A DNA stretch of 64,000 bases from Plasmopara viticola (lineage: Eukaryota > Oomycota > Peronosporomycetes > Peronosporales > Peronosporaceae). This document shows, piece by piece, positions 5,958 to 57,639 of this stretch. The stretch's first letter is position 1, and each line of letters opens with the position of its first letter. The notes beneath the pieces were generated by a model. The model made no database searches. It was not told the DNA's origin and saw only the letters and a program-made list of their open reading frames with translations. The stretch spans positions 1-64,000 of the forward strand of contig MBPM02000140.1 in assembly GCA_001695595.3 (NCBI GenBank), read 5' to 3'. Both the position numbers and the translations under genes were made by a program.

Positions 5958-5976
5958 CAACTGAGCTAGACGGGTA
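5958..5976. repeat. Target-site duplication, right copy of LINE-1
   Basis: CAACTGAGCTAGACGGGTA, identical to the first 18 bases of the tRNA-Lys gene plus one upstream base (tRNA on the minus strand). The left copy is outside the window. Confidence 0.9.
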
Positions 5977-6460
5977 TACTCGAGTTAAGATAATATCAAA
6001 TGTACACAAAAAGAGAAACACAACCAGGAGCAAGCACACCGACAAACACACCAACACCAAGTATAAGCTCTTGGTATGCACGCACGCAACCACATTATTC
6101 TACCCGCATAAGTCGGACAAGAACGTCGTGACAAACGCATGATCGAACAGTCTCTTGCGAAGATCATACATAGTTTTCGTGTTTACGAACAGAATTCTTA
6201 CTGCTAAGTGTAGACAGGCACCCCATTTCCTAACAACGGAAATGGTTTGAATATAGTCGAGCAGAAAATTTTATTCTTTGCTGTTCAAAACAGCTACTTG
6301 CGTCGCTCTTGTAGTCAAGAGTAATCGCACCGTGAACGACCACGACGATTGTTAGACTTAAAGAGAAATCCAAACCAAAATACGAAGAAGGAGCATGTGC
6401 TGCTTTCTAGTATAAATGCATGGCGCACAAATCTTTCACGCACGACTCTTACGCAATTTA

Positions 6461-6533
6461 CACCCCTTGTGGGGCTCGAACCCACGACCACTGGCTTAAA
6501 AGGCCAGCGCTCTACCAACTGAGCTAGACGGGT
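6461..6533 (-). tRNA. tRNA-Lys(UUU), array I
   Basis: The cloverleaf is readable on the minus strand: D-arm GCTC/GAGC, anticodon stem CTGGC/GCCAG with loop CTTTTAA (anticodon TTT), T-arm GTGGG/CCCAC with loop TTCGAGC. The A-box (TAGCTCAGTTGG) and B-box (GGTTCGAGCCC) are intact. Acceptor ACCCGTC pairs imperfectly with AAGGGGT. It may be a pseudogene or a tRNA-like repeat component. Confidence 0.75.
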
Positions 6534-6534
6534 A
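6516..6534. repeat. Target-site duplication, left of SINE-1
   Basis: CAACTGAGCTAGACGGGTA inside the tRNA at 6461-6533, immediately before SINE-1. Confidence 0.9.
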
Positions 6535-6791
6535 GACCCGGTGGCGTGGGTTAGTGGATTATGCTTCTGGTCCTCACGGTGTGTGTTGCGGGTTCGAGCC
6601 CCACATCGGACAAACTTCATAATCAACCAGACTTGGGGAGAGGACGGCACCAAGCGAAATATTTCCGACCCCGATCAAGAATAAGACAATAACAAGACGA
6701 AAAAGAATCTTCAGACTAAAAATGTAAATGTAGAAATTTAGCCAAGCCGAGAAGGTATAGGTTGTGTTAAGATTAAATACATGACAACTTT
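6535..6791 (+). mobile_element. SINE-1: tRNA-headed SINE at the LINE target site
   Basis: 257-bp element flanked by exact 19-bp copies of the LINE target (6516-6534 and 6792-6810). The head (6535-6609) is tRNA-like, with B-box GGTTCGAGCCC at 6591-6601 and a looser A-box near 6542-6556. The anticodon arm is too poor to name an isotype. The body has no reading frame. It ends GACAACTTT, close to the LINE-3 end GACAAACTTT. A second copy at 56807-57062 differs at few positions. Its absence of coding capacity, pol III boxes and shared target fit a SINE moved by the LINE machinery; the partnership is inference. Confidence 0.82.
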
Positions 6792-6810
6792 CAACTGAGC
6801 TAGACGGGTA
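6792..6810. repeat. Shared target copy: right of SINE-1, left of LINE-2
   Basis: One CAACTGAGCTAGACGGGTA serves as the right duplication of SINE-1 and the left duplication of LINE-2, so two elements stand back to back at one target. Confidence 0.9.
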
Positions 6811-6895
6811 CTTCCCAATTTGCCGGCTACTACGCAAGTCAAATCATAGGAAGTGCCCCCTTTCAACCACCTTTTCTACCCTTCGTTCTATCGCA

Positions 6896-9416
6896 ATGGA
6901 CAGCCCTGACATTTCTTCCCGCGCGTTTCGCAAAGAATCTTTCGAAAACGTCAAATCTGTCCCGTCTGCGTTGTTACTTACTGTAAGTAATCATTAATTG
7001 GAGAAGGGACTCGATATAGAGTTGCCTCTGACATCTAGTTCAACTGACGGCGCGGCTACGGTCACGCCGCCGAAACTTAATGCTTCCACCTCGGAAGCGT
7101 TCGCTGGGTCAAGTGCACCTGGTGGTCCGGACAGTGAATCGATTCTCTCCCCTCAGTCAGGCGTCAAGAATGTCTCGTCCCCACCAGATGAAGACATGCG
7201 TCCGACCATGGCTAGCTTACTTGCGCAGCAAGAAACCATTCGTCGGAGCACCGAGGACGTTGACGCTGCGCGTCGGCGTGTAGAAACGCCCAAGCCACTC
7301 GCCTGCGACATTGAAGCAATCGAACGCCAGTACGCTGCTGGCGGGGACTGGTCATGCATCGCCTCTCAGATGGAGCAGGCGCGGCCATATACCTTACCTC
7401 GTGCCAAGTACGATATGGTCATCGATACCGGACGCATGTTTGCAAAAACACTGCTCCAGAAGATTATGGCATCGCTAACGGGCAAGCATCACGGCAACGG
7501 CGTACTTGAACGCCTGTACAGCAAGTTCGAGATAGGCCAAGTGTCCAAACTTCCCGGTGGCAATCTTCGAATTAAAGTTAAGTCGAAGGACGCCTGCATC
7601 GCTCTCGAGCGCACAACGATAAACATCTTAGGGGGTGTATTTATGTTTAAGGAATTCGACGTGCTAGGTGGCAAGTACTTTGTCGATATTTCGAATGTTG
7701 ACTCGGACACGAAAACGGACGTAATGTTGCGCCGCTTGTTTTTGATGGGCTGCAAACCGGTGTACAATATCTTCCGTGAAGTGAATTTGCAACTGGAATA
7801 ACGTCAGCCACCTGGAGAGTATACTTCCTTAGCACGACATGCCCAGGTCCTCTCATTGTGAATGGATCAGTGTGTGACCAGTTCCACTTCGACAACAAGC
7901 TGCACCCCGTGCACGGAAAGAACTCTCCATATCCTTCCGAGCGTTTGCCGTTCGGTTATCGTTCGCATCATTTCATCGACCTGCGCACGAGTGACACCAA
8001 ATTGCAACGTCCAGCCACTCCAACCGGGTCACAGCCACTGCATCCTGTCACAGCTCTTGCTGCAGCAAAACAGGATCATCAAGCGACACCAAAAATAGCC
8101 ATTTCGAAGTCCAAATCGATGACCTCGCTGCAGCGTGCAGTACAGGAATCCAAAGCGAAAAATGATAAGAAGCTTCAACAAGAAGTTCAGCATGGTCTGC
8201 CGCTCAACTGCAATCAGCTTGCAAGTTCCCCAAGCTTCACTGATGATATTCTATCATTTGCAACGTTCGAAGGGTCGGGCGGGAAAATTTCCCCACCTTG
8301 TAGTCCCGAAAGCAGTATTAAGACACCAATGATGTACCTTACCAACGGAGAGACCTCAGACGGATTCGCAACCGTCTTCAACAGCAATAAGCGGAGCCGC
8401 GGAGACATTGACCTCTCGAATCTTCTCACTAAAAAGCAACCGCAATCACTCGACGGAATCGCGACTAAAAACTTTTTTGAAGTCCTGCAGACCATGGAAT
8501 TTGATCTTGAGCTTAAAGACGTCGCGGCAAGCAAGAAGTTTGGCGTGCGCAAGCAGATCGTTCCAGTAGCCGTGGCACGTCCTTCGGGGATAACCACCAG
8601 AAAGGGATCGGTATTTTTCATGGAAAAACATCACACAAAAATAAAAAAAGCAGCAAAGGCTTCGTCGATCCTCGAAGTCACCGAGGCAATGATCAATGAT
8701 GAAAATACTGCACTGCTTGATACGTTGCCAGATCGTCTTGTGCTTGCAGACGAAAAGGTCGATGGCATAATCAAGCTACTTGATAACGCAACAAATCCAG
8801 ACCTTGTGATGAAGCCAGCAGCTCAATGTCCGATGGCTTTCAAAAGCGCATTGTCCCTTAAAATGGCAGGTGACCATCGCATCATCGCTGAAATTGCCCA
8901 ACTGCATGCGATTAACCGCGTATTATCCGCTACGTATCCAATAGAAGACACAACTTTTGTTACAAAGTGGAAGCGTGTCATGAATTTGCCGCTACCATCC
9001 AACCGCCATGACATCTTCAAGGCGTGTGCCAAGTGGTGGACCCACTCTGACTTGATTACGGAGCTTGCGCGTGCTTCGAAGGCTCTCGGTATATTCGAGC
9101 TTGCGCTCATGTCCATTGCTCCGACACTCTTTGAAAATGACCACTGGATTTAATATTTTACAGGCCAGCCAGTCGAATGGATTCCAGCACACCACATGCG
9201 CCTCTTGCATCCCAACACACTGCTACGGCTGCTGCGTTCTAAGGTTGGAGAGCTTTGCATGGAGCAGTGGCGTGACGTGCAATGGCAAGCTCACCTTCTT
9301 GACGACCTTGAAGTGCTCCGCCAAATTATCCAGACGACTCGTCGGTGCTGAAGATTCAATTGAATGCTGGCTCCTTGGCTACGACAGTGGCTGGAGCTGT
9401 CTCCAGTCGCTGCTAA
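6896..9416 (+). pseudogene. LINE-2 ORF1 remnant
   Basis: Begins at the family ATG (MDSPDIS) 85 bases inside the element. A CAA codon has become TAA at 6995-6997. A one-base deletion near 7787 shifts the frame (reading resumes by 7858), a TAA follows at about 9151, and a small deletion lies near 9325. The RRM-like block (YFVDISNVDSDTKTDVMLRR) is at about 7678-7740. It ends at the usual TGC TAA (9411-9416). Confidence 0.88.
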
Positions 9417-10430
9417 AGTTGGATCGGAAAAACAACACGCCTGGAACGCGCTATCTCGCTTATTACCGTCAACACAAACGGCATCAAGCAAAATGGTCAC
9501 CTCTATTGAAAAACTTGTAGCCAAACACTCGCTAACATGCGTCCAAGAAACCAAGTTTGCTGACGTGGAGCATCTCAATACATTCAAGTTTCACCTCAGC
9601 TCAAATTTTGCCCACAAAGTCTTTGTCAATGTTAGTAACATGAGACTCGACCGACCCACGCGTGGTTGCAGTAGTGGAGTTCTGACGCAGCTACGTTCTG
9701 ATTTCCCTGGTATCGACACGGCTGCAGAAATATTAAACCTGTCGGTGCCGGGACGATATCTTGTCGTAACGGTAACAGTTCAACGTGCTCCTGCCTATAT
9801 TCACAATGTGTATGCGCCTGTCGATAGACACGAAAAGCAATCGTTCTTTCTAAACCTTCCAATAGAAGGGTTTGAAGATGATGCGACGCACTTCATGCTT
9901 GGAGATTAAATTACGCCACTTGATCCGCGACTTGACTGCTCGAAACCTGACTTGCACTTCGACCCGAGCCGCTCTGCTTATCTCGAGTTGGTTGCCAAAC
10001 TAGGTGTCATTGACGCGTTGCGTACCCGCTATGACTTTAAGCGAGTGTTTACTGGTCCTCTTCCTCGAAAATATCGACCGGACGACATTCTGGTTTCGGA
10101 GCAATTCTGTGCCCGCTTTAACGAAAATGCCAAATATTTTTCCAGTGCACACTAATGACCATCTTGCTCAAAGTGTTTCTCTTTCGCAGTGGTAAGCAGC
10201 TACATGGTCCTGGTTATTAAAAATTCTTGCGATACCTCCTCGAATATTCGAAGGTTGTGCAGAAATTGAAAGCGAGGCCGAGCAGGTCCTGGACTAAATT
10301 CGCCGATCAGAAACCCCCGACAAATTTGGATAAACTGGATAAAAAGCATCAAGACTCAGCTTTATCACGAACAGAAGAAGTTCAAGCAACAAGATACGCG
10401 GGAGATGGAGCGCACAGGAAAAAATGGGCA
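9364..10430 (+). pseudogene. LINE-2 ORF2 remnant, endonuclease part only
   Basis: Starts at the overlapping ATG (MLAPWLR). Endonuclease motifs are recognisable (TVNTNGI, VQETKFAD, NVYAPVDRHEK, ITPLDPRLD), with stops and indels near 9907 and 10150. After about 10405 the sequence jumps from the endonuclease-RT linker to the last bases of ORF2 (GCGCACA...ACGTCTAGGAAAGAAC). The RT, thumb and Cys/His domains, about 3.1 kb in sister copies, are deleted. Confidence 0.88.
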
Positions 10431-11443
10431 ACGTCTAGGAAAGAACAAGCTTAATGTCGGCATATTGAGTTCAATTCAAATGATTACAATCCGCCTTCAG
10501 ATGCTGAGGTTGCTACCTGGTCGGGCAGCCTGCCTGTTGCCCTTGCGGGTGATGACATATCACTTGAAGAACGTCTGGGTCGCTATGGGGTCTGTCGACG
10601 CAAGCCTCGCACTTGGTGTAGCAATACGGTGAGCCTGAAGGATAATCGGATGCAAACCAGTCGCGCCAGAGGCCGGAGAAGGCGGCGCCTGCTAAAAAGC
10701 AGTGAGAAAGCGGTTTTGTGTTGAAGACGAGGCTTCTGTCTGGTGTGCGCCCCGGGAGGATAGGGTTTTCTTGGTTCAGCCTGGGAGCTGAAACACAGTG
10801 ATTTTGGTAACCCTGCAGGGCCCAAAAACTGTGAGGCCAAAGAGGAAAAAAATATTCGCTGTGAGGCCTGGAGAAAAAAAAAATATTGTCCATGACGAAT
10901 GAGAAGCCAGGGATTTTTACCTCATGTAGTATAAGGTCGAAACCCGATCCCAGTTATGGGTCGGCCCACGGATTGAGCTGCGGGCTACGCCGTTGTGAAA
11001 CGATGCGGCAGTGTGCTAAAAGACCGGACTTTCGTTTAGGCACCTGAAGTCTCGATACGCGTGAACAAGTTGCACGCAATGGGCGCTGTATGTGCTGCCC
11101 AAGGGCCAAAAGTTTCGGCTGTTGATCGACCGCACTTATCGAGCAAGGTTGCCACGCACAGAGGGTCCAAAAGGCCTTTTTCGCCCGAAGTTGAAGTCGA
11201 AATGGGGGCAAAAGTGTAGAGCCGAAACCTTCCCAGGCCAGTGATTGGATGAAATCCAAAAAATACGCGGAACACATAAATTATGTAATTTCCTTTTTTT
11301 ATGAAATTACATAAATTTTTGTATATTCCTATTTTGGAAAAAAATGCAAAACTATATATAGTACACTAGAGTAGTTTAGAACAGATATTACGCCAGGCGA
11401 GTTGGGAAGGCATTCGCCTATATTACATGATATAGACGACCTT
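10431..11443 (+). other. LINE-2 3' untranslated region
   Basis: Homologous to the 3' regions of LINE-1, -4 and -5, about 1 kb, no gene seen. It contains the inner hairpin (about 11283-11313) and the terminal hairpin (about 11415-11438). Confidence 0.75.
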
Positions 11444-11462
11444 CAACTGAGCTAGACAAGTA
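11444..11462. repeat. Target-site duplication, right of LINE-2
   Basis: CAACTGAGCTAGACAAGTA; two differences from the left copy, in keeping with an older insertion. Confidence 0.88.
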
Positions 11463-19372: not shown

Positions 19373-19887
19373 ATACTCGAGTTAAAATAATATCAAATGT
19401 ACACAAAAAGAGAAACACAACCAGGAGCAAGCACACCGACAAACACACAAACACCAAGTATAAGCTCTTGGTATGCACGCACGCAACCATATTATTCTAC
19501 TCGCATAAGCCGGACAAGAACGTCGTGACAAACGCATGATTGAACATTCTTTTGCGAAGATCATACATAGTTTTCCTGTTTACGACAGAATATTAACTGC
19601 TGAGTGCAGATAGGCAGCCCATTTCATAGCAACGGAAATGCTTCGATTATAGTCGAGCAGAAAATTTTATTCTTTGCTGTTTAAAACAGCTACTTGCGTC
19701 GCTCTTGTAATTGCACCGTGAACGACCATGACGATTGTTAGACTTAAAGAGAAATCTAATCCAGAATACGAAGAAGGAGCATGTCTGCTTTTGAGCATAA
19801 ATGCATGGCGCAAGAAAGAGCATGTGCTGCTTTCTAGTATAAATGCATGGCGCACAAATCTTTCACGCACGACTCTTAGGCAATTTA

Positions 19888-19960: not shown

Positions 19961-19961
19961 A
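19943..19961. repeat. Target-site duplication, left of LINE-3
   Basis: CAACTGAGCTTGACGGGTA; one difference from the right copy at 29365-29383. Confidence 0.88.
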
Positions 19962-22774: not shown

Positions 22775-22817
22775 AGTTGCCTCGGCTGCACAGCACGCCT
22801 GGAATGCCGTCTCTCTG

Positions 22818-41476: not shown

Positions 41477-44400
41477 AGTTGAGTCGGAAGGACAACACGT
41501 TTGGAACGCTGTCTCGCTTATGACAGTGAACACAAACGGCATCAAGCGAAATGGCCACCTCCTTATTGGAAATCTTTTGGCCAAGCACTCGCTAACATGC
41601 GTACAAGAAACCAAGTTTGCTGACGCGCAGCATCTCAATACGTTCAAGTTTCACCTCTGCTCACATTTTGCGCACAAACTCTTCGTCAATGACAGTAACA
41701 CGCGACTCGACCGACCCACGCGCGGTCGCAGTAGTGGAGTCCTGACGCTGCTACGTTCTGATTTTCCTGGTATCGACACGGCTGCAGAAATGGTACACCT
41801 GTCGGTGCCGGGACGGTATCTTGTTGTAAAGGTAACGGTTCAACGTGCTCCCGTCTATATTCACAATGTGTATGCGCCCGTCGATAGACACGAAAAGCAA
41901 TCGTTCTTTCTAAACCTTCCAATAGATGGGTTTGAAGATGATGCAACGCACTTCGTGCTTGGAGATTTAAATACGCCACTTGACCCGCGACTTGACTGCT
42001 CGAAACCTGACTTGCGCTACGACCCGAGCCGCTCTGCTTGTCTCGAGTGGCTTGCCAAGCTAGGTGTCGTTGATGCGTGGCGTACTCACTATGACTTTAA
42101 GCGAGTGTTTACTGGTCCCCTTCCTCGAAAAAATCGCCTGGACTACATTTTAGTTTCGGAGCAATTCTGTGACCGCTTTTACGAAAGTGCTGAATACTTC
42201 CTGCCAATGCACGCTGGTGATCATCTTGCTCATAGTGTTTCCCTTCGAAGCGGTACGCAGCTACATGGTCGTGGTTATTGGAAATTTCCACAATACCTCC
42301 TCGAATATCCGAAGATTGTATCAGCGATTGAGAGGGAGGCCGAGCAGGTCCTAGACCAACTTCGCCGTTCAAAAAACCCCGGGAAAATTTGGAAAAGTGG
42401 AAAGGAAGCATCAAGACTCAGCTTCAAGACGTACAGAGGAAGCTCAAGCAACAAAGTACGCGAGAGATCGAAGATGCCCGCGTCACATTAGATCAAGCAG
42501 CCGCACGATACCGCGTATTTCCAGACAAAAACAATCGAGACTTCTTTGACGAGGCTCTGCAAATCTATAAAGACACAGTCAAAAGAAGTAGTCAATACAA
42601 TCATGATGCTTCTTTCGATTTCCAAGCCAACAACTCAGAACGTTCAACAGCCCATTTTTTTCGTCCTCTCGACACAAGTTTGCGGCGCGTTTCGATTGAA
42701 GAGGTAATAACACCGAGTGGAAATGTCTCATCGAATCCTCAAGAAATTTCTCTGCGCTTCTTGGAGCACTGGGGTCTGAGATGGGTGATGTCGAAAGCCC
42801 AAACGAATCGGCTTCTGAGCCAAATGGCGCGAAGCAACGCAAACTTCTTGACTCAATTTCGAGAAGCGTTCCAGTCACGAGCTACACAGCTTTGGAAGCC
42901 GACTTGACCACTGCTGACCTTGCAACTGCAATCCGGCATATGAGAGCGACATCCGCTCCAGGCATGGACGGATTGACGGCTGGATTTTATCAGGTGGCAC
43001 CAGTAGTATTCGGGGAGTGCCTCGTCATTGTCTTTAAGATAGGCTGCGACGTGGTAAGCTTTTAGCGTCTCAACGCAAATCGACGGTCGTACTGCTACAT
43101 AAGAAGGGTTCTCGCGCTGAGCCAGGCAATTACCGTCCGATTGCACTCGTGCCAGTCGACGTAAAGGTGCTGTCAAAAGCACTGACATATCGGCTACAAA
43201 GTGTAATGCTCGACTTGATTCATCCAGACCAAAAAGGCTTCGTCATGACTCGATCAATTCATCATCATGTACGCTTTCTTGTCGACCTGCAAGACCTTGT
43301 CACAAGTCGGGATGAAGAGGCATACGCACTTTTCCTGGACTTTCAAAAGGCATTCGACCGTGTAAATTGGTCATACATGTTTCGGCTGCTGGCTTGCATG
43401 GGCTTTGGACCAGTTTTTATATCTTGGGTCCGGCTCTTGTACACCAAACCGAAGGCACACCTGCTCATCAATGGTAACATCCAGCCGGCTTTACACCCTA
43501 CTCGAGGCGTTAAGCAAGGAGACCCTCTGTCGGCACTCCTATTTGTTCTCACAATTGAGCCTCTTGGAAATTTGCTTCGCAAACATGAGGAATACGGGGT
43601 ATGTCTAAATGCGAATAGTACGGTGACAAGCATGTTTTTTGCAGATGACTCGACGCTTCTCGCCGGATCAATTGATCACGTTCAGGCTCAGCTCGAAATT
43701 GTCGACGAGTATTGTGCTGGCTCTGGAGCAAGACTTAATCTATCCAAGTCGGTACTGCTGGCTCTTAATCGTAGCACGGTGTGTCCTGAACTTCCCGGGG
43801 TCCAAGTCCTTGATCGTTCTGACACAACAAAATACTTAGGCATCCCGTTCGGTCAGGCGTCAGTCAACGACATGATCACCGAATTCTTGGATGCTCGCTT
43901 TTTTGAGGGCATAAAGTCATGGTACAGGCGCGCTCGCACACTCCGAGGGAGACTGCTCGTTGCACAGACGATGGTGCTATCACGCTTATGGCACTACACT
44001 CAGCACGCGAATATTTCTCAGATCATTGTGCGGCGCTGGCAATCGATGCTTAACCGATTCGTGTTGAGTCGAAAGCATGATCGTGACGGAAAGCACGTGA
44101 TGCTCATACCGAGCGAATTTCTTTATCTCCGGCGCAATCAAGGTGGTCTTGGAATTCCGCGTCTCGATGCACAGCTCAAGAAGCAACGTCTTTCGCTGTT
44201 ATTGCAGTTTATTGGGGCTGTAAGTGCTGCTGATGAGCGAAACTGGACGGCAGCGAGTGTTGAGCTGCTGGCGTCAGGATTACCTTCCTATGGCGGATGC
44301 CATGCACTGGACTTTCTTACAATTTCACCTCTTCGTCACGGCCAGCTTATCTCACATAGCCGAAGTGCAATGTGGTGGAGAGAGACGTGGGTGTGTTGGT

Positions 44401-45607
44401 ACAAGACTAGATGGAACGTCACGTGGCATGACTTGGATTCACATGAACGCGCCACGTACGGCCTACATCAGCCGATTTGGTTCCATGCTGATGCTCAACT
44501 TCACTACGAGAAGCGAAAACGGTCCGATGCGGCAGTGGTGCATCATCGTTGTCTAGGGATGGTTACCGAACCACAACGAAGCTTCCGTCTCCATATCTCG
44601 CGCGTCTTCAACTTACGGTCACTTTCCGACTTCAGGTGTGAAGGTGAAGAGTGGCCAGCTGCAACTACCTTCGTACAGCGACATATCGACTACACGATTG
44701 GCTCAGTGCGACCGTATACACAGATAAAGTGGCTGCGCTCGCTGTACCGCGAAGCGACACAGATTGTAGACCGCCTTGAAGCACGACAACTTGTACGAGA
44801 CTTGTCAAGTATCGACGCACAGAGATGTCTGCTTCCACGAGTTGGCTACAGGAACAAAGCAAAAATATTCTTGATCCCGAAAATCCCACGGTCAGCGATT
44901 ATAAAAATTGTCTGGGCGCCTGACCCTCCGAAAAAGCCGCACCCGATGCAAATTTACTCGAGGCGCGTTGACAACCACCAAATTGAAGCCTTCGCGGAGT
45001 ATAGCAAGCGACTGCGCCAGATCCTGCTTCCAGTCTTCGAAGACTTGCAGTTTCGTCTAGCGTTTCGCCTGCTGCCTGTGCGATCGCGCTTTTGGTTCTT
45101 GGAGACGTCACATCCAGGGATTCGTAAATGCGTGCGTGCAGGATGCAACGCGATAGAGACCGAAAAGCATTTGTTTTTTGACTGCACGTTTGCGTCACAG
45201 CTGTGGTGCCAGATCCTGCAGCTTGTCTCGCCGTTCTTTGTCTCTCGACCGTTGTGGCTCGATATTGCTCTCGCGAGCAAGCTGCGCGTACGCGACGAAT
45301 GGACTAAATGCTCTGTTGTGGTAAGAGAAGTATGGCATGTGCTTCGGGCTGTAGTGCTTCACACGATCTGGACGAACCGCAATCGATGCTTATTCGATGG
45401 ACGGCAACCGATGCGATAGCTCCAGCGCTCTTGATCATACTGTCGACTTTCTGTGCGCACCTTCGCTTTTTCCAGCGACACCTGTATGACCGACAGCTGA
45501 GCCAACATCTGCAACAAGTGATTGGCTTGCTGAGAACCCATTCCATGTTTTGCAGCTTCACTTGCCAGTATCCAGGCATCACCCAGGAGCGTACTACGCA
45601 GCTCTGA
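41424..45607 (+). pseudogene. LINE-4 ORF2 (endonuclease-reverse transcriptase), four frameshifts
   Basis: Overlaps ORF1 by 53 bases. The endonuclease part is open from 41424 to about 42395. Indels near 42392, 42774 and 43040 break the linker and RT fingers. The RT and C-terminal part is then one 756-codon frame (43149-45419) with FLDFQKAFDRV, TRGVKQGDPLS, MFFADDSTLL, KYLGIPFGQ, CVRAGCNAIET and HLFFDC. A last one-base deletion gives TAG at 45417-45419, about 60 codons early. About 1,395 codons if straight. Confidence 0.92.
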
Positions 45608-46700
45608 CCTGCGAAGCCGGTGTCATCACGACCTGTGCGCACAAGACAAAAAATGGGCGAGGTCTAGGAAAGAACACGGTCAATGTCGCAAATATTGAGT
45701 TCATTTCAATTAATGCCACTTCGCCGTCAGATGTTGTGGCTGCTACCTGGTCGGGCAGCCTGCCGGTTGCCCTTGCGGGTGAAATCGTTTCCTTTGAATA
45801 ACGTCTGGGTTGCTTTAGGGTCCGACGTCGCCGCAAGACTCGTACTTGATGTATCCAAACGGCGCACATGGAGAGCCATCGGGTGCGAGCTAGCCGCGTC
45901 AGAAGCCGGGGAAAGCGGCGCCTCCTGAAAAGCAGTGAGGAAGCGGCTGTGTGTTGAGGCCAGAGCTTTTGTCCTCTGTGCGCCCTGGAAGGCCAGGGGT
46001 TCCTTGGTTCAGCCTGAGAGATGAAACACGTCAGTTTTGGTAACCCTGCAGGGCTTGAGAAGCCAACTTACCTGTGGGGCCATAGAGGCAATTTTTTTTT
46101 ATTTTCGCTGTGGGGCCTGGAGGGACAATTTTTTTTTATCTACCATGACGAATGAAAAGCCAGGGACTTTGCCTTATAAAGTTTAAGGTCGAGACCCGAT
46201 CCCAGTTATGGGTCGGCCCACGGACTGAGCTGCGGGCTACGCCGTCGTGAAACGACGCGACAGTGTGCTGAAAGACCGGACTTCCGTTTAAGCACCTGAG
46301 GTCTCGACACGTGTGAACAATTGGCATGCAATGGGCACTGTATGCGCTGCACATGTGCCCAAAGTTTCAGCTGCTGATTGGCCGCAGTTTCCGAGCAATG
46401 TTGCCACAAACAGAAGGTCTAAACGACCAATTTTGGCCGAAGTTGAAGTCAAAATGGGGGCAAAAGTGTAGAACCGAAACCCTCTCAAGCCAGTGATTGG
46501 ACGAAATCCAAAACCAAAACTAAGGAAAAAACACAAATATATGCACTTTCCTTTTTTGAGGAAAATACATAAATTTATGTAGATTCCTATTTTGGATAAA
46601 AATGCATAATTATATATGTACACTAGAGTAGTTTACAGCAGATATTACGCTTGGCAAGTTGGGTAGACATTCGCCTATATAACTTAATATAGACGACCTT
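45608..46700 (+). other. LINE-4 3' untranslated region
   Basis: About 1.1 kb, homologous to the 3' end of LINE-1, -2 and -5, no gene seen. The terminal hairpin lies at about 46671-46695; the inner hairpin is only partly kept near 46545-46570. Confidence 0.78.
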
Positions 46701-46719
46701 CAACTGAGCTAGACGGGTA
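46701..46719. repeat. Target-site duplication, right of LINE-4
   Basis: CAACTGAGCTAGACGGGTA, identical to the left copy. Confidence 0.92.
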
Positions 46720-47203
46720 TACTCGAGTTAAGATAATGTCCAATGTGCACAAAAAGAGAAACACAACCAGGAGCAAGCACACCGACAAACACACAAACAC
46801 CAAGTATAAGCTCTTGGTATGCACGCACGCAACCATATTATTCTACTCGCATAAGCCGGACAAGAACGTCGTGACAAACGCATGATTGAACATTCTTTTG
46901 CGAAGATCATACATAGTGTTCGTGTTTACGAACAGAATTCTAACTGCTGAGTGCAGACAGGCAGCCCATTTCCTAACAACGGAAATGGTTCCATTATAGT
47001 CGAGCAGAAAATTTTATTCTTTGCTGTTTAAAACAGCTACTTGCGTCGCTCTTGTAGTCAAGAGTAATTGCACCGTGAACGACCATGACGATTGTTAGAC
47101 TTAAAGAGAAATCTAAACCAGAATACGAAGAAGGAGCATGTGCTGCTTTCTAGTATAAATGCATGGCGCACAAATCTTTCACGCACGACTCTTAGGCAAT
47201 TTA

Positions 47204-47276
47204 CACCCCCCTTGGGGCTCGAACCCACGACCACTGGCTTAAAAGGCCAGCGCTCTACCAACTGAGCTAGACGGGT
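47204..47276 (-). tRNA. tRNA-Lys(UUU), array IV, T-stem/acceptor variant
   Basis: Plus strand reads CCCCCCTTGGGGCTC, so the last T-stem base is changed (CCCAA instead of CCCAC). The same change occurs in the tRNA at 57566. Confidence 0.7.
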
Positions 47277-47277
47277 A
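47259..47277. repeat. Target-site duplication, left of LINE-5
   Basis: CAACTGAGCTAGACGGGTA. Confidence 0.92.
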
Positions 47278-47361
47278 CTTCCAATTTGCCGGCAACTACG
47301 CAAGTCAAATCATAGGAAGTACCCCCTTTCAACCACCTTTTCTACCCTTCGTTCTATCGCA

Positions 47362-49903
47362 ATGGACAGCCCTGACATTTCTTCCCGCGCGTTTCGCAAA
47401 GAATCTTTCGAAAACGTCAAATCTGTCCCGTCTGCTGTCCCGTCTGCGTTGTTACTTACTGTAAGTAATCATCAATTGGAGAAGGGACTCGATATAGAGT
47501 TGCCTCTGACATCCAGTTCAACTGACGACGCGGCTACGGTCACGCTGCCGAAACTTAATGCTTCCACCTCGGACGCGTTCGCTGGGTCAAGTGCGCCTGG
47601 TGGTACGGACAGCGAATCGATTCTTTCCCCTCAGTCAGGCGTCAATAATGTCTCGTCCCCACCAGATGAAGACATGCGTCCGACTATGGCTAGCTTACTT
47701 GCGCAGCAAGAAACCATTCGTCGGAGCACCGAGGACGTTGACGCTGCGCGTCGGCGTGTAGAAACGCCCAAGCCACTCGCCTGCGACATTGAAGCAATCG
47801 AACGTCAGTACGCTGCTGGCGGGGACTGGTCATTTATCGCCTCTCACATGGAGCAGGCGCGGCCATATACCCTTCCTCGTGCCAAGTACGATATGGTAAT
47901 CGATACCGGACGCATGTTGGCAAAATCACCGCTCCAGAAGATTATGGCATCGCTAACGGGCAAGCATCACGGCAATGATGTACTTGAGTGCCTGTACAGC
48001 AACTTCGAGATTGGCCAAGTGTCCAAACTTCCCGGTGGCAATTCGAATTAAAGTTAAGTCGAAGGACGCCTGCATCGCTCTCGAACGCACAAAGATAAAC
48101 ATCTTAGGGGGTGTATTTATGTTTAAGGAATTCGACGTGCTAGGTGGCAAGTACTTTGTCGATATTTCTAATGTTGACTCGGACACGAAAACGGACGTAA
48201 TGTTGCACCGCTTATTCTTGATGGGCTGCAAACCGGTGTACGATACCTTCCGTGAAGTGAACCTTGCAACTGGAATAACGTCAGCCACCTGGAGAGTATA
48301 CTTCCTTAGCACGACATGCCCTGGTCCTCTCATTGTGAATGGATCGGTTTGTGACCAGCTCCAATTCGACAACAAACTGCACCCCGTGCACGGAAAGAAC
48401 GCTCCATATCCTTCCGAGCGCTTGCCGTTCGGCTATCGTTCGCATCATTTCATCGACCTGTGCACGAGCGACACCAACTTGCAACGTCCAGCCACTCCAA
48501 CCGGGTCATCGCCACTGCAAACTGTCACGGCACTTGCTGTAGCAAAACAGGAGCATCAAACGAACCCAAACATAGCCATTTCGAAGTCCAAGTCGATGAC
48601 CTCGCTGCAGCGTGCAGTACAAGAGTCCAGAGCGAAAAATGATAAGAAGCTTCAACAAGAAGTTCAGCATGGTCTGCCACACAACTGCAATCAGCTCGCG
48701 AGTCCTCCAAGCTGCACTGACGATATTCTGTCAGTTGCAACGTTCGAAGGGTCGAGCGGAAAAATTTCTCCGCCCCGCAGTCCCGAAAGCAGTATGAAGA
48801 GACCAACGATGTATCTTACAAACGGAGAAACCTCAGACGGATTCGCCACCGTCTGCAACAGCAAAAAACGGAGCCGCGGAGACATTGACTTCTCAAATCT
48901 TCTTACCAAAAAACAGACGCAATCACTCGATGGAATCGCGACTAAAAACTTCTTTGACGTCCTGCAGAACATGGAAGTCGATCTTGAGCTTAAAGACGTC
49001 ACGGCAAGCAAGAAGTATGGCTTACGCAAGCAGATTGTACCAGTAGCCGTGGCACGTCCTATGGGAATGGCCACCGCAAAGGAGTCGGTATTTCTCATGG
49101 AAAAACACCACACAAAAATTAAAAAAGCAGCGAAGGCTACGTCGATCCAAGAGGTTACCGAGGCAATGATCAATGATGAAAATACTGCCCTGCTTGATAC
49201 GTTGCCAGATCGTCTTGTGCTTGCAGACGAAAAGGTCGATGGCATGGTCAAGTTACTTGATAATGCATCAAATCCAGACCTTGTGATGAAACCGGCAGCT
49301 CAATGTCCGATGGCTTTCAACAGTGCGTTGTCCCTTAAAATGGCAGGTGACCACCGCATCATCGCTGAAATTGCGCAACTGCATGCAATCAATCGCGTAT
49401 TATCAGCTACGTACCCGACAGAAGACACAACTTTTGTTACAAAGTGGAAACGTGTCATGAATATGCCACTACCATCCAACCGCCATGACATCTTCAAGGC
49501 ATGTGCCAAGTGGTGGACCCACTCTGACACGATTACGGAGCTTGCGCGTGCGTCGAAGGCACTCGGTATATTTGAGCTTGCGCTCATGTCCATTGCTCCG
49601 ACACTCTTTACAAATGACCACTGGATTCAATACTTTACAGGCCAGCCAGTCGAATGGATCCCAGCACACCACATGCGCTTTTTGCATCCCAACACACTGC
49701 TACGGCTGCTGCGTTCTAAGGTTGGAGAGCTTTGTATGGAGCAGTGGCGTGATGTACAATGGCAAGGTCACCTTCTAGACGATCTCGAAGTGCTCCGCCA
49801 GCTTGAAGGATACTATCCGGACGACTCATCGGTGTTAAAGATTCAATTAAATGCTGGCTCCTTGGCTACGACTGTGGCTGGAGCTGTTTCCAGTCGCTGC
49901 TAA
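47362..49903 (+). pseudogene. LINE-5 ORF1, one frameshift
   Basis: ATG at 47362; two VPSA repeats. A two-base loss at about 48043-48045 (GGTGGCAATTCG against GGTGGCAAAATTCG in LINE-6) separates an upstream 229-codon frame from a downstream frame running to 49903. The RRM-like block is in the second frame (KYFVDISNVDSDTKTD). About 847 codons overall. Confidence 0.9.
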
Positions 49904-52900
49904 AGTTGGGTTGAAAGAACAACACGCCTGGAACGCTCTCTCGCTTATGACCGTGAACACAAACGGCATCAAGCGAAATGGTCACCTCTTCATTGACAAT
50001 CTTTTAGCCAAGCACTCGCTAACATGCGTCCAAGAAACCAAGTTTGCTGACGCGCAGCATCTTAATACGTTCAAGTTTCACCTCTGCTCAAATTTTGCCC
50101 ACAAACTCTTCGTCAATGACAGTAACACGCGGCTCGATCGACCCACGCGCGGTCGCAGTAGTGGAGTACTGACACTGCTACGTTCTGATTTTCCTGGTAT
50201 CGAAACGGCTGCAGAAATGGTACACCTGACTGTGCCGGGAAGGTATCTTGTTGTAAAGGTAACGGTTCAACGTGCTCCCGTCTACATTCACAATGTGTAC
50301 GCGCCTGTCGATAGACACGAAAAGCAATCGTTCTTTCTAAACCTTCCAACAGATGGGTTTGAAAATGATGCAACGCACTTCGTACTCGGAGATTTAAATA
50401 CGCCACTTGACCCTCAACTCGATTGCTCGAAACCTGACTTGCACTACGACCAGAGCCGCTCTTCTTGTCTTGAGTGGATTGCCAAACTAGGTGTAGTTGA
50501 TGCGTGGCGTACCCACCATGACTCTAAGCGAGTGTTTACTGGTCCTCTTCCTCGAAAAAATCGATTGGACTACATTCTGATTTCGGAGCAATTCTGCGAC
50601 CGCTTCTACGAAAATGCCGAATATTTCCTGCCAATGCATGCTGGCGATCATCTTGCTCATAGCGTTTCCCTTCGAAGTGGTACGCAGCTACATGGTCGTG
50701 GTTATTGGAAATTTCGGTGATACCTCCTCGAATATCCGAAGGTTGTATCAGCAATTGAAAGGGAGGCCGAGCAGGTCCTGGACCAGCTTCGCCATTCAGA
50801 AAACCCCGGAAAAATTTGGGAAAATTGGAAAAAAAGCATCAAGACTCAGCTTCAAGACGTCCAGAAAAAGCTCAGGCAACAAGACACGCGGGAGATCGAA
50901 GATGCTCGCGTCGCATTAGATCAAGCAGCCGCCCGATACCGTGCATTGTCAGGCAAAGAGAATCGAGACATTTTTGACGATGCTTTACGAAGCTATAAGG
51001 ATATAGTCACGAGAACCCGCCAACACAATCATGATGCTTCTTTTGACTTTCAAGTCAACAACTCGGAACGCTCAACATCTCATTTTTTTCGTCCTTAGAC
51101 ACAAGTTTGCGACGCGTTTCGATTGAGGAGGTTATAACACCAAGTGGAATGTCTCAACGAATCCTCAAGAAATCTCTCTGCGTTTCTTGGAGCACTGGGG
51201 ATCTGAGATGGGTGATGTCAAGAGTCCAATCGAATCGGCCTCTGAGCCAAATGTCGCGCAGCAACGCATACTTCTTGACTCAATTTCGAGAGTCGTCCCA
51301 GTCACGAGCTGCACAGCTTTGGAAGCCGACCTGACCACTGCTGACCTTGCAACTGCAATCCGGCATATGAGAGCGACATCCTCTCCAGGCATGGACGGTT
51401 TAACGGCTGGATTTTATCAGGTGGCACCATCAGTATTTGGCGAGTGCCTCGCGATTGTTTTCAAGGATAGACTGAGGCGCGGCGAGCTTCTAGCGTCTCA
51501 GCGTAAATCAGCGGTCGTACTGCTACATAAGAAAGGTTCACGCGCTGAGCCTGGCAATTATCGTCCAATTGCACTCGTGCCAGTCGACGTGAAGGTGCTG
51601 TCAAAAGCACTGACATATCGATTACAAAAAGTAATGCTGGACCTGATCCATCCAGACCAAAAAGGCTTCGTCAAGACCCGATCAATTCATCATCATGTAC
51701 GCTTTCTTGCCGATCTGCAAGACCTTGTGACAAATCGAGACGAAGAGACCTACGCACTTTTCCTGGACTTTCAAAAGGCATTCGACCGTGTAAATTGGTC
51801 GTATATGTTTCGGCTGCTGGCTTGCATGGGCTTCGGACCAGTTTTTATTTCATGGATTCAGCTCTTGTACACCAAACCGAAGGCACACCTGCTCATCAAT
51901 GGTAATATCCAGCCAGCTTTGCACCCTACTCGAGGCGTGAAGCAAGGAGACCCTTTGTCGGCACTCCTATTTGTGCTTACAATTGATCCTCTTGGAAATT
52001 TACTTCGCAAACATGACGAATACGGGATATGTCTGAATGCGAATTGTATGGTGACAAGTATGTTTTTCGCGGATGACTCGACGTTGCTCGCCGGGTCAAT
52101 TGATCACGTTCGGGCTCAGCTTGCAATTGTAGACGTGTACTGTGCTGGCTCTGGAGCAAGACTTAATTTGTCCAAGTCGGTACTGCTGGCCCTAAATCGT
52201 AGCATGGTGTGTCCTGCACTTCCCGGGGTCCAAGTTCTTGGACGTTCCGACACCACAAAATACTTAGGCATCCCGTTCGGTCAGGCGTCAGTCAACGACA
52301 TGATTACCAATTTTTTGGACGCTCGCTTCTTTGAGAGCATAAAATCATGGTACAGGCGTGCCCGCACACTTCGAGGTAGACTGCTCGTTGCACAGACGAT
52401 GGTGCTATCGCGTTTGTGGCACTACACTCAGCACGCGAATATATCTCGGGTCATTGTGCGGCGTTGGCAATCGATGCTTAACCGGTTTGTTCTGAGTCGT
52501 AAGCATGATCGTGACGAAAAGCACGTGATGCTCATCCCGAGCGAATTTCTTTATCACAAGCGCACCCACGGTGGTCTTGGTATTCCACGTCTCGATGCCC
52601 AGCTCAAAAAGCAACGTCTTGCGCTGTTATTGCAGTTTATCGGAGCTGTAATTGGTGATGATGAGCAGAACTGGACGGCGGCGAGCATTGAGCTGCTGAC
52701 GTCTGGATTACCTTGCTATGGCGGATGCCACGCACTCGACTTTCTTACAATCTCACCGCTTCGTCACGGCAAGCCTACTCACTTGGCCGAACTGCAATGT
52801 GGTGGAGAGAGACGTGGGTGTGTTGGTACAAGACACGATGGAATGTCACGTGGCATGACTTGAGTTTGCACGAACGCGCCATGTATGGCCTACATCAGCC

Positions 52901-54059
52901 AATTTGGCTCCATGCTGATGCTGATCTTCACTACGAGAAGCGAACACGATCCGATACGGTGGTGGTGCATCGACGTTGTCTAGGTATGGTCGCCGAACCA
53001 CAACGAAGCTTTCGTCTCCATATCTCATGTAGCTTCAAATTACGGTCACTCGCTGACTTCAGGTGTGAAGGTGAAGCGTGGCCAGCTGCAACCACCTTCG
53101 TACAGCGACATATCGACTACACGCTTGTCTCAGTGCGACCGTACACACAGATGAAGTGGCTGCGCTCGCTGTACCGGGAAGCGACGCAAATTGTTGACCG
53201 CCTTGGAGCACGACAACTTGTACGGGACTCGTCAAGCATAGACGCACACGGATGTCTGCTTCCACGAGTTGGCTACAGAAAAAAAGCGAAGATATTCTTG
53301 ATCCCGAAGATTCCACGGTCAGCGATCCTGAAAATTGTCTGGGCGCCTGACCCTCCAAAAAAGCCGCACCCGATGAAAATTTACTCAAAGCGTGTCGACG
53401 ACCAACAGATTGAAGCATTCGCGGAGTATCGAAAGCGGCTGCGCCAGATCCTGCTTCCGGTCTTCGAAGACTTGCAATTTCGTCTTGCGTTTCGCTTGCT
53501 ACCCGTGCGATCGCGCTTCTGGTTCTTGGAGACGTCACATCCAGGCATCCGTAAATGCGTGCGCGCAGGATGCAAAGCGATAGAGACTGAGAAGCATTTA
53601 TTTTTCGACTGCACGCTGGCGTCAAGGCTCTGGTGTCAGATCTTGCAGCTTGTCTCACCATTCTTTGTCTCTCGACCGTCGTGGCTTGATATTACTCTCG
53701 CGAACAAGGTGCACGTACGCGACGACTGGGTTCAATGTTCTGGTGTGGTACGAGATGTATGGCATGTGCTTCGAGCTGTGGTACTTCACACGATCTGGAC
53801 GAACCGCAATCGATGCTTGTTCGACGGACGGCAACCGATACCGGTAGCTCCAGCACTCTCAGTCATATTGTCGACTTTCTGTGCGCACATTCGCTTTTTC
53901 CAGCGACACCTGTACGACCGGCAGCTGAGACAAGATCTAAAACAAGTGATTGACTCGCTGAAGACCCATTCCGTGTTTCACAGCTTCACTTGTCAGCACC
54001 CGGGCATCACCCATAACCTGCAAGGCAGCACCATCAAGACCTGTGCGCACATGAACTAA
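49851..54059 (+). pseudogene. LINE-5 ORF2 (endonuclease-reverse transcriptase), broken
   Basis: ATG at 49851, with an alternative start MTVNTNGI at 49947. Endonuclease about residues 33-290. CGA has become TGA at 50718-50720. One-base losses near 51096 and 51149 hit the linker. The RT is open from 51187 to 52863 (FLDFQKAFDRV about residue 640, FADD about 740), then a frameshift near 52775. The last part is open to 54059 with CVRAGCKAIET and HLFFDC (about residues 1225-1255). About 1,403 codons if straight, the size expected for an APE-type LINE. Confidence 0.92.
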
Positions 54060-55085
54060 TAAACAACGTCTAGAAAAGAACACGGTTAATGTCGGCAAAT
54101 ACTGAGTTCATTCCAATCGTTTAAAAAGCCGTCGTCCGAAGATGTGGGTGCTATCTGGTCGGGCAGCCTGCCGGGCGCCCTTACGGGTAAAGCCTCATCA
54201 CTTGAAGAACGTCCGAATTTTCTGGGGTCCGCTGCCGCAAGTCTCGCACTTGATGTAGCCATACAGTGCACCTGGAGGGTAACTGGATACGAGCCAGCCG
54301 CGTAAAAGACCGGAGTAGGGGGCGCCTGTAACAAAGCAGTGAGAAAGCGGCTTCGTAAGTCAAGAGCTTTGTCTTCTGTGAACCCTGGGGGCCAAGGGTA
54401 CCTTGATGAAGTCTGAGAGCTGAATCCCAGTGGTTATGGTGACCCGAAGAGGCCTAAAAGGCCAATTTACCTGTGGTGCCATACCGGTCACTTTTTTATC
54501 TTTACTGTGAGGCCTGGAGAATCAAGAAATTTTCACTCCTCACGACGAATAAGAAGCGAGGGATTTTTGTCTTATAAAGTATAACGATCCCAAAAATGGG
54601 TCGGCCCACGGATTGGGCTGCGGATTACGCCGTCGCGAAACGACGCGACAGTGTGCTGAAAGACCGGACTTCCGTTTAAGCCCCTGAAGTCTTGATACGC
54701 GTGAGCAATTGGCATGCAATGGGCGCTGTATGTGCTGCCTAAGTGCCAAAAGTTGCGGCTGTTGATCGACCGCAGTTATCGAGCAACGTTGCCACGCACA
54801 AAGGGTCTAAATGGCCTTTTTCGCCCGAAGTTGAAGTCAAATCGGGGGCAAAAGTGTAGAACCGAAACCCTCCCAGACCAGTGATTGGATGAGATCCAAA
54901 AAATTACGTGGAAAACATAAGTTATGTATTTTCCTTTTTTTGAGGAAATTACATAAATTTTTGTATATTTCTATTTTGGGGGAAAATGCATAATTATATA
55001 TAGTACACTAGAGAAGTTTAGAACAGATACTACGCCAGGCAAGTTGGGTAGACATTCGCCTATATCACATAATATAGACGACCTT
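54060..55085 (+). other. LINE-5 3' untranslated region
   Basis: About 1 kb, no gene seen. Inner hairpin near 54924-54955 and terminal hairpin near 55057-55080. Confidence 0.78.
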
Positions 55086-55104
55086 CAACTGAGCTAAACG
55101 GGTA
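55086..55104. repeat. Target-site duplication, right of LINE-5
   Basis: CAACTGAGCTAAACGGGTA; one substitution from the left copy. Confidence 0.9.
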
Positions 55105-56247: not shown

Positions 56248-56732
56248 TAACTCGAGTCAAGATAACTTCAAATGTACACAAAAAGAGAAACATAACCAGG
56301 AGCAAGCACACCGACAAACACACAAACACCAAGTACAAGCTCTTGGTATGCACGCACGCAACCACATTATTCTACTCGCATACAGCCGGACTAGAACGTC
56401 GTGACAAACGCATAATTAAACATTCTCTTGCGAAGACCATACATAGTTTCGTGTTTACGAACAGAATTCAAAATGCTGAGTGCAGACAGGCAGCCCATCT
56501 CCTAACAACGGAAATGGTACGATTATAGTCGAGCAGAAAATTGTATTCTTTGCTGTTCAAAACAGCTAATTGCGTCGCTCTTGTAGTCAAGAGTAATTGC
56601 ACCGTGAACGACCATGCCGATTGCTAGACTTAAAGAGAAATCTAAACCAAAATACGAAGAAGGAGCATGTGCTGCTTTCTAGTATAAATGCATGGCGCAC
56701 TAATCTTTCACGCACGACTATTAGGCAATATA

Positions 56733-56805
56733 CAACCCCCGTGGGGCTCGAACCCACAACCACTGGCTTAAAAGACCTGCGCTCTACCAACTGAGCTAGA
56801 CGGAT
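56733..56805 (-). tRNA. tRNA-Lys-like, array V copy 3, degenerate, flanking SINE-2
   Basis: The anticodon arm is disrupted (plus GGCTTAAAAGACCTGCGC), as is the T-arm (ACCCACAACC). Likely a pseudogene. Confidence 0.6.
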
Positions 56806-56806
56806 A
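56788..56806. repeat. Target-site duplication, left of SINE-2
   Basis: CAACTGAGCTAGACGGATA; one difference from the right copy. Confidence 0.88.
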
Positions 56807-57062
56807 CCCGGTGGCGTGGGTTAGTGGATTATGCTTCTGGTCCTCACGGTGTGTGGTGCGGGTTCGAGCCCCACACCGGACAAACTTCGTAATCAACCAG
56901 ACTTGGGGAGAGGACGGCCCCAAGCGAAATGTTTCCGACCCCGATCAAGAAAAAGACAATAACAAGACGAAAAAGAATCTTCAGACTAAAAATGTAAATG
57001 TAGAAATCCTAGCCAAGCCGAGAAGGTATAGGTTGTGTTAGGATTAAATACATGACAACTTT
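56807..57062 (+). mobile_element. SINE-2: tRNA-headed SINE at the LINE target site
   Basis: 256-bp second copy of the SINE at 6535-6791. It starts two bases later (CCCGGTGGCG). B-box GGTTCGAGCCC is at about 56863-56873. Head 3' side ACCGGAC pairs with CCGGT at the 5' end better than in SINE-1. It ends GACAACTTT before the target copy at 57063-57081. No reading frame. Confidence 0.82.
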
Positions 57063-57081
57063 CAACTGAGCTAGACGGGTA
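57063..57081. repeat. Target-site duplication, right of SINE-2
   Basis: CAACTGAGCTAGACGGGTA, followed by normal array spacer TATACTCGAG. Confidence 0.9.
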
Positions 57082-57565
57082 TACTCGAGTTAAGATAATA
57101 TCAAATGTACACAAAAAGAGAAACACAACCAGGAGCAAGCACACCGACAAACACACAAACACCAAGTATAAGCTCTTGGTATGCACGCACGCAACCATAT
57201 TATTCTACTCGCATAAGCCGGACAAGAACGTCGTGACAAACGCGTGATTGAACATTTTCTTGCAAAGATCATACATAGTGTTCGTGTTTACGAACAGAAT
57301 TCTAAGTGCTGAGTGCAGACAGGCAGCCCATTTCCTAACAACGGAAATGGTTCCATTATAGTCGAGCAGAAAATTTTATTCTTTGCTGTTTAAAACAGCT
57401 ACTTGCGTCGCTCTTGTAGTCAAGAGTAATTGCACCGTGAACGACCATGACGATTGTTAGACTTGAAGAGAAATCTAAACCAGAATACGAAGAAGGAGCA
57501 TGTGCTGCTTTCTAGTATAAATACATGGCGCACAAATCTTTCACGCACGACTCTTAGGCAATTTA

Positions 57566-57638
57566 CACCCCCCTTGGGGCTCGAACCCACGACCACTGGC
57601 TTAAAAGGCCAGCGCTCTACCAACTGAGCTAGACGGGT
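57566..57638 (-). tRNA. tRNA-Lys(UUU), array V copy 4, T-stem/acceptor variant
   Basis: Same CCCTTGGGG variant as the tRNA at 47204; flanks LINE-6. Confidence 0.7.
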
Positions 57639-57639
57639 A
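57621..57639. repeat. Target-site duplication, left of LINE-6
   Basis: CAACTGAGCTAGACGGGTA; the right copy lies outside the window. Confidence 0.9.

Follow-up and report, generated by a model that had tools for sequence, protein, structure and literature searches.

In the oomycete Plasmopara viticola, putatively L1-like long interspersed nuclear elements (LINEs) with two open reading frames (ORFs) and an endonuclease of the apurinic/apyrimidinic (APE) type, together with a 257-bp short interspersed nuclear element (SINE) at the same site, very probably treat the conserved A-box/D-arm as a common landing site across families of tRNA genes, as their junctions suggest. The elements were studied in a window of 64,000 nucleotides that carries a tRNA-Lys array (C140:1-64000; contigs are labelled C plus a number), and the genome-wide searches covered one assembly of 92,937,831 bases in 358 contigs. 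Within the window six plus-strand LINEs and two SINEs (257 and 256 bp) share one base of tRNA-Lys(TTT) genes.

Insertion sites in the window and across the assembly

ARAGORN and Rfam each called 30 minus-strand tRNA genes in the window, typed by ARAGORN as tRNA-Lys(TTT). The 19-mer flanking the elements occurs there 37 times at up to two mismatches (32 exact), against none in 100 shuffles, and 175 times exactly in the whole assembly. The preliminary description of this DNA had put every LINE junction at the same base of tRNA-Lys, and this holds at the ten ends located in the window, five 5' and five 3' (Table 1). Seven of the ten flanks are exact, and the remaining three carry two mismatches (11444) or one (19943 and 55086). 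The two SINEs were absent from that description. Exo_endo_phos (APE) and RVT_1 domains are present in LINE-3, LINE-4, LINE-5 and LINE-6, the four copies searched, while LINE-1 and LINE-2 were assigned through DNA similarity. Pairwise identity among LINE-1, LINE-5 and LINE-6 is 98.5-99.3% (99.3% for LINE-5 and LINE-6) and that of LINE-4 with LINE-5 is 88.5%; LINE-3, which represents family B, is about 71% identical to the remaining LINEs, of family A, over the aligned part. A tRNA gene stands directly at the 5' end, on the opposite strand, of LINE-3, -4, -5, -6 and both SINEs, and the other end of the elements abuts just the first part of a tRNA. LINE-2 sits behind SINE-a, in a stack of tRNA, SINE-a, fragment and LINE-2 whose order does not tell which element inserted second, and the 5' end of LINE-1 lies beyond the window.

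For the genome-wide comparison, the 3' ends of family A (LINE-A) were taken from a 300-bp DNA search (41 rows; 40 of 95 candidates scored) and from an exact 14-mer found at 39 places, and those of family B (LINE-B) from 27 rows with every candidate scored. SINE ends occur at 138 exact places, 100 of which were listed, and the SINE DNA search scored the best 40 of 294 candidates. For the heads (5' ends), 40 of 63 candidates were scored in family B and all 34 in family A. The resulting 3' sample holds 101 distinct ends: 45 of LINE-A (all 39 exact ends and six further A-like ones), 24 of LINE-B (the rows C29, C6:4 and C147:50349, which stops short of the end, being left out) and 32 of the SINE, mostly one or few per contig. 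The 5' sample holds 90 distinct heads.

A tRNA segment adjoins the element at all 39 exact LINE-A ends, at 23 of the 24 LINE-B ends and at all 32 sampled SINE ends. At the exact LINE-A ends it comprises tRNA nucleotides 1-14 preceded by CAAC (38) or TAAC (1); these ends show CAACTGAGC in 37 cases and CAACTGAGT and TAACTGAGC in one case each, in 14 different flank strings, one of them shortened by its stretch. Compared with CAACTGAGC, 86 of the 101 ends are exact, nine have one mismatch, four have two and two are shifted by 1-2 bases. Reading by eye assigned 100 of the 101 to tRNA segments, 99 in the D-arm and one in the T-arm of a tRNA-Ser (C211). With nearly all copies at one position of a repeated target, the elements rank as strictly target-specific LINEs. 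Hence the flanks are not random, as the 39 exact LINE-A ends show, and the proposal that an APE-type LINE lineage inserts at a fixed base within the tRNA A-box was right.

The tRNA segments at the 3' ends are all antisense to the element, and it is on these segments that the relative orientation rests, because the script for the heads examined the opposite strand only. That script accepted an ARAGORN call ending at most 5 nt away, and such a tRNA was found at 63 of the 90 heads. Among the 27 uncalled heads, nine directly follow the 3' junction of an older element (stacks), ten show a tRNA D-arm by eye, one is the C211 T-arm, one lies at a contig edge (C333) and six have breakpoints elsewhere (C27:35672, C147:25415, C238:50184, C140:78114, C147:7256 and C255:7335).

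Fourteen anticodon families, for nine amino acids, are targeted, with three likely misnamed calls set aside: Lys-TTT, Lys-CTT, Met-CAT, Phe-GAA, Thr-AGT/CGT/TGT, Ile-AAT/TAT, Tyr-GTA, Cys-GCA, Ala-AGC/CGC and Arg-ACG, the last from a single head. The calls set aside, Pro-CGG (twice) and Ser-CGA (once), are probably misnamed, as they begin with Tyr and Thr sequences, one with an altered second letter. The target is therefore the tRNA A-box across families and not tRNA-Lys as such. The tRNA-Lys target first proposed was too narrow and is rejected, since at least 14 anticodon families carry insertions. On C166, tRNA-Thr(CGT) genes are interleaved with tRNA-Ser(GCT) genes, in which GCTCA is missing, and the three elements read there, a small sample, are all in tRNA-Thr, including one that ARAGORN called Ser-CGA but that has a Thr 5' sequence.

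Further element lineages also end in tRNA genes: L010 around 7832 (C27:75835) and L022 (C8:1576719). One of these two has the tail ...TATAGACAACTTTAACC, and the junction of the other retains native ACCAC.

The cut, the duplication and the CAAC end

The letters native to the position before TGAGC are CCAC in tRNA-Thr, CGAC in tRNA-Ile(AAT), CATT in tRNA-Ala and GATT in the Ser T-arm, yet the 3' junctions at these targets read CAAC. Paired ends whose native letters differ from CAAC number 29, including C255 (out of register) and C8:1576719; they are not independent events, because the same targets recur among them. CAAC was found in 26, TAAC in two and the native CGAC in one, and without C255 the junction is CAAC or TAAC in 27 of 28. 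As the junctions read CAAC where the native letters differ, these four bases come from the element, or from its RNA reading into its own flank, and the element-specified 3' junction sequence is CTT(T)CAAC.

The target-derived part begins at TGAGC, and the duplication extends from there to position +1 of the tRNA (nucleotides 1-14). From this, the first nick most likely lies directly after A14 on the sense strand of the tRNA. The preliminary description had given a 19-bp duplication and a first nick after TAGCTCAGTTG. The 19 bp are the sum of the 14 bp, CAAC and one A, because all of these agree in tRNA-Lys; with CAAC specified by the element and the 5'-side A ambiguous or the element's own, a duplication of about 14 bp is left and the longer one is rejected. 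The comparison of paired junctions likewise moves the nick, which is better placed after TAGCTCA. Duplications of 14 bp were found for LINEs in tRNA-Met (C37), tRNA-Ile(AAT) (C23), tRNA-Tyr (C163:47819), tRNA-Thr(TGT) (two on C47) and tRNA-Thr(CGT) (C166:67087), and with one mismatch in tRNA-Phe (C6); C166:25388 has 15. The LINE duplications seem longer wherever the next base happens to match. Of 65 paired ends, 54 have an exact common string of 9-21 nt.

The bases before the cut were also counted without a motif filter in 99 aligned ends with 31 different 14-mers, the two ends in shifted register being left out. Reading away from the cut, they are A in 97, C in 99, T in 99, C in 97 and G in 98, followed by A in 82 or G in 16. 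In the tRNA-Ser T-arm on C211 (site GTGAGTTCA) the insertion is at GAGTTCA, far from +1, and has the same 14-bp stagger, which, for this one site, points to a second cut positioned by its distance from the first.

Proposed mechanism and alternative explanations

In the mechanism that these junctions suggest, target-primed reverse transcription, the endonuclease would nick the sense strand of the tRNA gene after (A/G)GCTCA, and the freed ...GCTCA 3' end would serve as primer from which the element RNA is copied, starting at its CAAC end. The cut in the other strand would fall about 14 bp away, which corresponds to nucleotide +1 in the tRNA gene, and fill-in would rebuild the gene, whose A-box would become a target anew. 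An intact tRNA gene is usually left head-to-head with the element 5' end, so that the target site stays usable, and tRNA function would survive the insertion. We incline, if only slightly, to the wider view that the A-box would act as a self-renewing safe harbour throughout the genome, in which duplication of nucleotides 1-14 restores gene and target, insertions can stack repeatedly at one gene, in any tRNA family whose A-box is suitable, and that the lineage would be old in oomycetes, with the same target in other genera.

Several observations weigh against a base-precise A-box target with a constant stagger. One of the 101 3' ends, C30:418421, is not in a recognisable tRNA gene. The SINE on C52 is the junction that retains native CGAC, and the pair C8:1576719, although counted, is itself stacked on another element. 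SINE duplications often exceed 14 by 1-3 nt, and 11 of the 65 paired ends have no exact common string: five of them are rearranged at the 5' side (C27:35672, C147:25415 and C238:50184, which have one breakpoint in common, C140:78114 and C255:7335), C333 lies at the edge of its contig, and the other five differ by point changes; the unpaired C147:7256 has the same breakpoint as C140:78114. Copy counts are not event counts, because some array copies are duplications. Moreover, the window contains AGCTCA 79 times and (A/G)G(C/T)(C/T)CA 248 times. Such a frequency makes the hexamer alone insufficient for specificity, and recruitment would need an additional signal from the longer conserved D-arm or from factors of RNA polymerase III (Pol III).

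That last point leads to a first alternative, in which the elements are directed by a protein that tethers them to the Pol III apparatus (TFIIIC/TFIIIB) and the endonuclease reads little sequence. The A-box is a Pol III promoter element, the short sequence by itself is too common, and a tether of this kind has been proposed for Dictyostelium TRE5, which needs the B box (available text of PMC5391098). The same text gives TRE5 an insertion window of 23-181 bp upstream, with 80.2% within 47+/-3, whereas the cuts described here are base-precise. In addition, the tRNA-Ser gene was cut in its T-arm at GAGTTCA with the stagger unchanged, and the three C166 elements, few as they are, lie in tRNA-Thr and not in the interleaved tRNA-Ser(GCT) genes without GCTCA. 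Targeting mainly through a tether is hence a possibility, though a rather unlikely one.

A second alternative traces the copies back to a handful of ancestral insertions within tRNA arrays, later spread by unequal exchange or gene conversion, with no active choice of target. Part of the evidence has this form. LINE-5 and LINE-6, 99.3% identical, carry one and the same mutated tRNA fragment at the 3' end and agree over 80 nt of 3' flank; counterparts of LINE-2 and LINE-3 on C27 show matching odd flank letters; and the LINE-A 3' ends on C113 have an identical 3' flank, the six included in a tree forming one clade. However, the same elements occur in many tRNA families on different contigs, with the letters of each family duplicated, and one base is used in common by family A, by family B, about 71% identical to it, and by an unrelated SINE. 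Identity across 7.8 kb reaches 98.5-99.2% among full-length copies that occupy tRNA-Thr(CGT), tRNA-Met and tRNA-Lys genes. The Thr and Met copies, which agree at 99.23% over this length, have unrelated outer flanks when these are compared side by side, and their occupation of two tRNA genes at this identity argues for separate insertions. The LINE-A tree, built from 26 3' kilobases, requires at least 13 changes of target type (minimum 9; mean of shuffled labels 16.2, with a value as low in 2 of 200), and the copies of Met, of Ile-AAT and of Thr-CGT genes are each divided between two positions in it.

Pure array spread is refuted as a full explanation by the target changes in the tree and by the near-identical Thr and Met copies, and a descent of all copies in this way is very improbable; array recombination, which had been named as what could undo the proposed targeting, stands for some copies within arrays, such as LINE-5 and LINE-6. 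By these comparisons the insertions appear to be many, with part of the copy number owed to array duplication, and the residual clustering in the tree appears to show array spread as well. The tRNA-Lys arrays on C27 and C140 have LINE-2, LINE-3, SINE neighbours and odd flank letters in common, and may be haplotypes or duplicated arrays.

One close likeness among tRNA-directed elements is to TRE5/TRE3 and NLTR-A/NLTR-B of the Dictyostelium type, which are also APE-type and lack long terminal repeats (non-LTR). According to the available parts of PMC5911963, PMC5006619 and PMC5391098, TRE5 inserts 40-54 bp upstream, TRE3 40-150 bp downstream, NLTR-A 2-6 bp upstream and NLTR-B 39-64 bp upstream of the tRNA gene, which these elements leave uncut, and the NLTR elements have RNase H; a review table places all four such non-LTR elements outside the tRNA gene (same part of PMC5911963). 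Here a single base inside the A-box is used and tRNA nucleotides 1-14 are duplicated. That the elements are TRE or NLTR in another host is extremely improbable in spite of the APE and reverse transcriptase (RT) domains, the two ORFs and the association with tRNA genes, since insertions of TRE5 and NLTR-A lie beyond the mature tRNA sequence and TRE5/TRE3 have an oligo(A) terminus (PMC5911963, in the portion available), as opposed to a cut inside the tRNA and a CTT(T)CAAC tail.

Proteins, known elements and neighbouring features

The longest stop-free frames are 871 amino acids (aa) for ORF1 (copy L021, counted from base 1 of the element without assuming a start codon) and 1,244 aa for ORF2 (copy L028). 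Of 15 copies read, 11 show an overlap of about 50 nt between these frames, and no complete copy among the 15 keeps both frames open throughout. ORF2 has the AP-endonuclease-like domain upstream of RVT_1, as in APE-type non-LTR retrotransposons, and a C-C-H-C near its end that is conserved in homologues. Across 23 sequences (the query and 22 homologues) E62, Y150, D181, D240, D266 and H267 are invariant and N36 and N183 nearly so. These residues, which we take to be the catalytic ones of APE, leave the active site intact and align in part with L1 ORF2p. Human LINE-1 ORF2p is the top PDB match, by sequence for endonuclease plus RT (171 bits against 85 for R2, with few clades represented in PDB) and by predicted fold for the endonuclease, whose model (predicted local distance difference test, pLDDT, 87.6; 23 sequences) best matches the human L1 endonuclease (E 7e-16). 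L1 itself makes its nicks at scattered AT-rich sites and carries a poly(A) tail.

ORF1 matched no Pfam or NCBIfam family and shows no CCHC or C2H2 pattern. Its model is poor (mean pLDDT 52), with a possible region resembling an RNA-recognition motif at 195-288, and Foldseek found nothing similar to it at E <= 0.001. For ORF2, relatives with 50-75% identity occur in Globisporangium splendens, Peronospora, Lagenidium and metagenomes, and that of Phytophthora infestans has just 30%. Relatives of ORF1 (28-72%) occur also in Plasmopara halstedii, Pythium brassicae, Phytophthora cactorum and Albugo candida. Searches of viral contigs and genome contigs confirmed no relative.

The SINE has a B-box-like GGTTCGAGCCC when read by eye, and its head was not called as a tRNA by ARAGORN or Rfam. 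With LINE-B it has in common just a short end (GACAACTTTCAAC versus GACAAACTTTCAAC) and a hairpin predicted at the terminus; compared with shuffles, the hairpin ahead of the 3' end is modestly more stable (z -0.7, -1.0, -2.7, -1.0 and -2.6). The mobility of the SINE probably depends in trans on the LINE proteins.

Among the known elements found, the APE LINEs directed to tRNA genes have their insertions next to the gene, and the LINEs that lie within such genes possess a restriction-like endonuclease. To the latter belong the NeSL-related, tRNA-gene-specific NeSL-1_TV (tRNA-Pro), LIN15_SM (tRNA-Arg) and LIN25_SM (tRNA-Glu), with one tRNA family each (accessible text of PMC4640811). The present elements are set apart from them by endonuclease type and target family, APE and at least 14 anticodon families. 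Nor do they have the NeSL/R2 arrangement: their APE domain is N-terminal to RT, and no search was aimed at a restriction-like endonuclease. Keno, Mutsu and Dewa of fish are likewise target-specific LINEs in small-RNA gene arrays, Keno with an APE-like endonuclease, but their targets are U2, 5S ribosomal RNA and a tRNA-Leu spacer, and the available sections of PMC3706591 and PMC4640811 describe no A-box target. Utopia of oomycetes also occupies small-RNA gene arrays, with several families per array; it differs by its restriction-like endonuclease, its U2 small nuclear RNA target and the disruption of target genes, which lose the 5' part (PMC4640811, as far as available). The Dada DNA transposons use fixed sites inside tRNA genes too, but through a DDE transposase, with short duplications (GCGTTCA, GCGCAA) and a given tRNA family for each transposon family (excerpts of PMC3706591).

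A search of open-literature titles and abstract openings, with most subscription journals and Repbase outside it, found no report of an APE LINE in a tRNA A-box. Target-specific LINEs are models for site-directed gene insertion via reverse transcription, and a base-precise A-box site in many tRNA families, where the tRNA gene is usually left intact, would be a multi-copy safe harbour with a natural rule of re-use. With the D-arm sequence, the T-arm off-target and the tRNA-Ser(GCT) genes without the motif as ready-made substrates and controls, the system moreover allows a clean distinction between an APE endonuclease that reads DNA by itself and one that depends on Pol III factors to do so.

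Table 1. Elements, junctions and adjoining tRNA genes in the window
Feature	Position	Strand	Remarks
LINE-1, family A	1..5957	+	3' end abuts tRNA-Lys 5' fragment; 5' end outside window
LINE-1 3' junction	5958..5976	+	CAAC + 14-bp tRNA duplication (5962-5975) + A
Intact tRNA-Lys(TTT) beside SINE-a/LINE-2	6460..6534	-	ARAGORN, Rfam
SINE-a	6535..6791	+	257 bp; common site and duplication
tRNA fragment separating SINE-a from LINE-2	6792..6810	+	stacked insertions
LINE-2, family A	6811..11443	+	4,633 bp; internal deletion
LINE-2 3' junction	11444..11462	+	2 mismatches
tRNA-Lys(TTT) beside LINE-3	19887..19961	-	ARAGORN, Rfam
LINE-3, family B	19962..29364	+	9,403 bp; ~71% to family A over aligned part
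APE endonuclease frame of LINE-3	22818..24131	+	
Reverse transcriptase frame of LINE-3	24068..25825	+	
LINE-3 3' junction	29365..29383	+	
Intact tRNA-Lys(TTT) beside LINE-4	38766..38840	-	ARAGORN, Rfam
LINE-4, family A	38841..46700	+	7,860 bp
APE endonuclease frame of LINE-4	41424..42491	+	
Reverse transcriptase frame of LINE-4	43149..45419	+	
LINE-4 3' junction	46701..46719	+	
Intact tRNA-Lys(TTT) beside LINE-5	47203..47277	-	ARAGORN, Rfam
LINE-5, family A	47278..55085	+	7,808 bp
APE endonuclease frame of LINE-5	49851..50720	+	
Reverse transcriptase frame of LINE-5	51187..52863	+	
LINE-5 3' junction	55086..55104	+	AAACGGG variant, common to LINE-6
tRNA-Lys(TTT) beside SINE-b	56732..56806	-	ARAGORN, Rfam
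SINE-b	56807..57062	+	256 bp; common site
SINE-b 3' junction	57063..57081	+	
Intact tRNA-Lys(TTT) beside LINE-6	57565..57639	-	ARAGORN, Rfam
LINE-6, family A	57640..64000	+	continues to contig position 65442
APE endonuclease frame of LINE-6	60203..61357	+	
Reverse transcriptase frame of LINE-6	61168..63216	+	

The long 3' part of LINE-3 contains a 457-aa open frame on the minus strand (27719-29092) without a Pfam match; other paired family-B-like copies measure about 6.7 to 9.5 kb, with single pairings of 3.6 and 11.1 kb. The units of the tRNA-Lys array (window 11860-56142) are spaced at about 547, 558 and 588 bp and differ by the presence of a duplicated 42-bp spacer block. A spacer of the array, and not the LINE site, holds a Copia-type LTR retrotransposon (window about 14065-18453, minus strand) with gag, integrase and RVT_2 in two frames, whose LTRs are alike over the stretch read.

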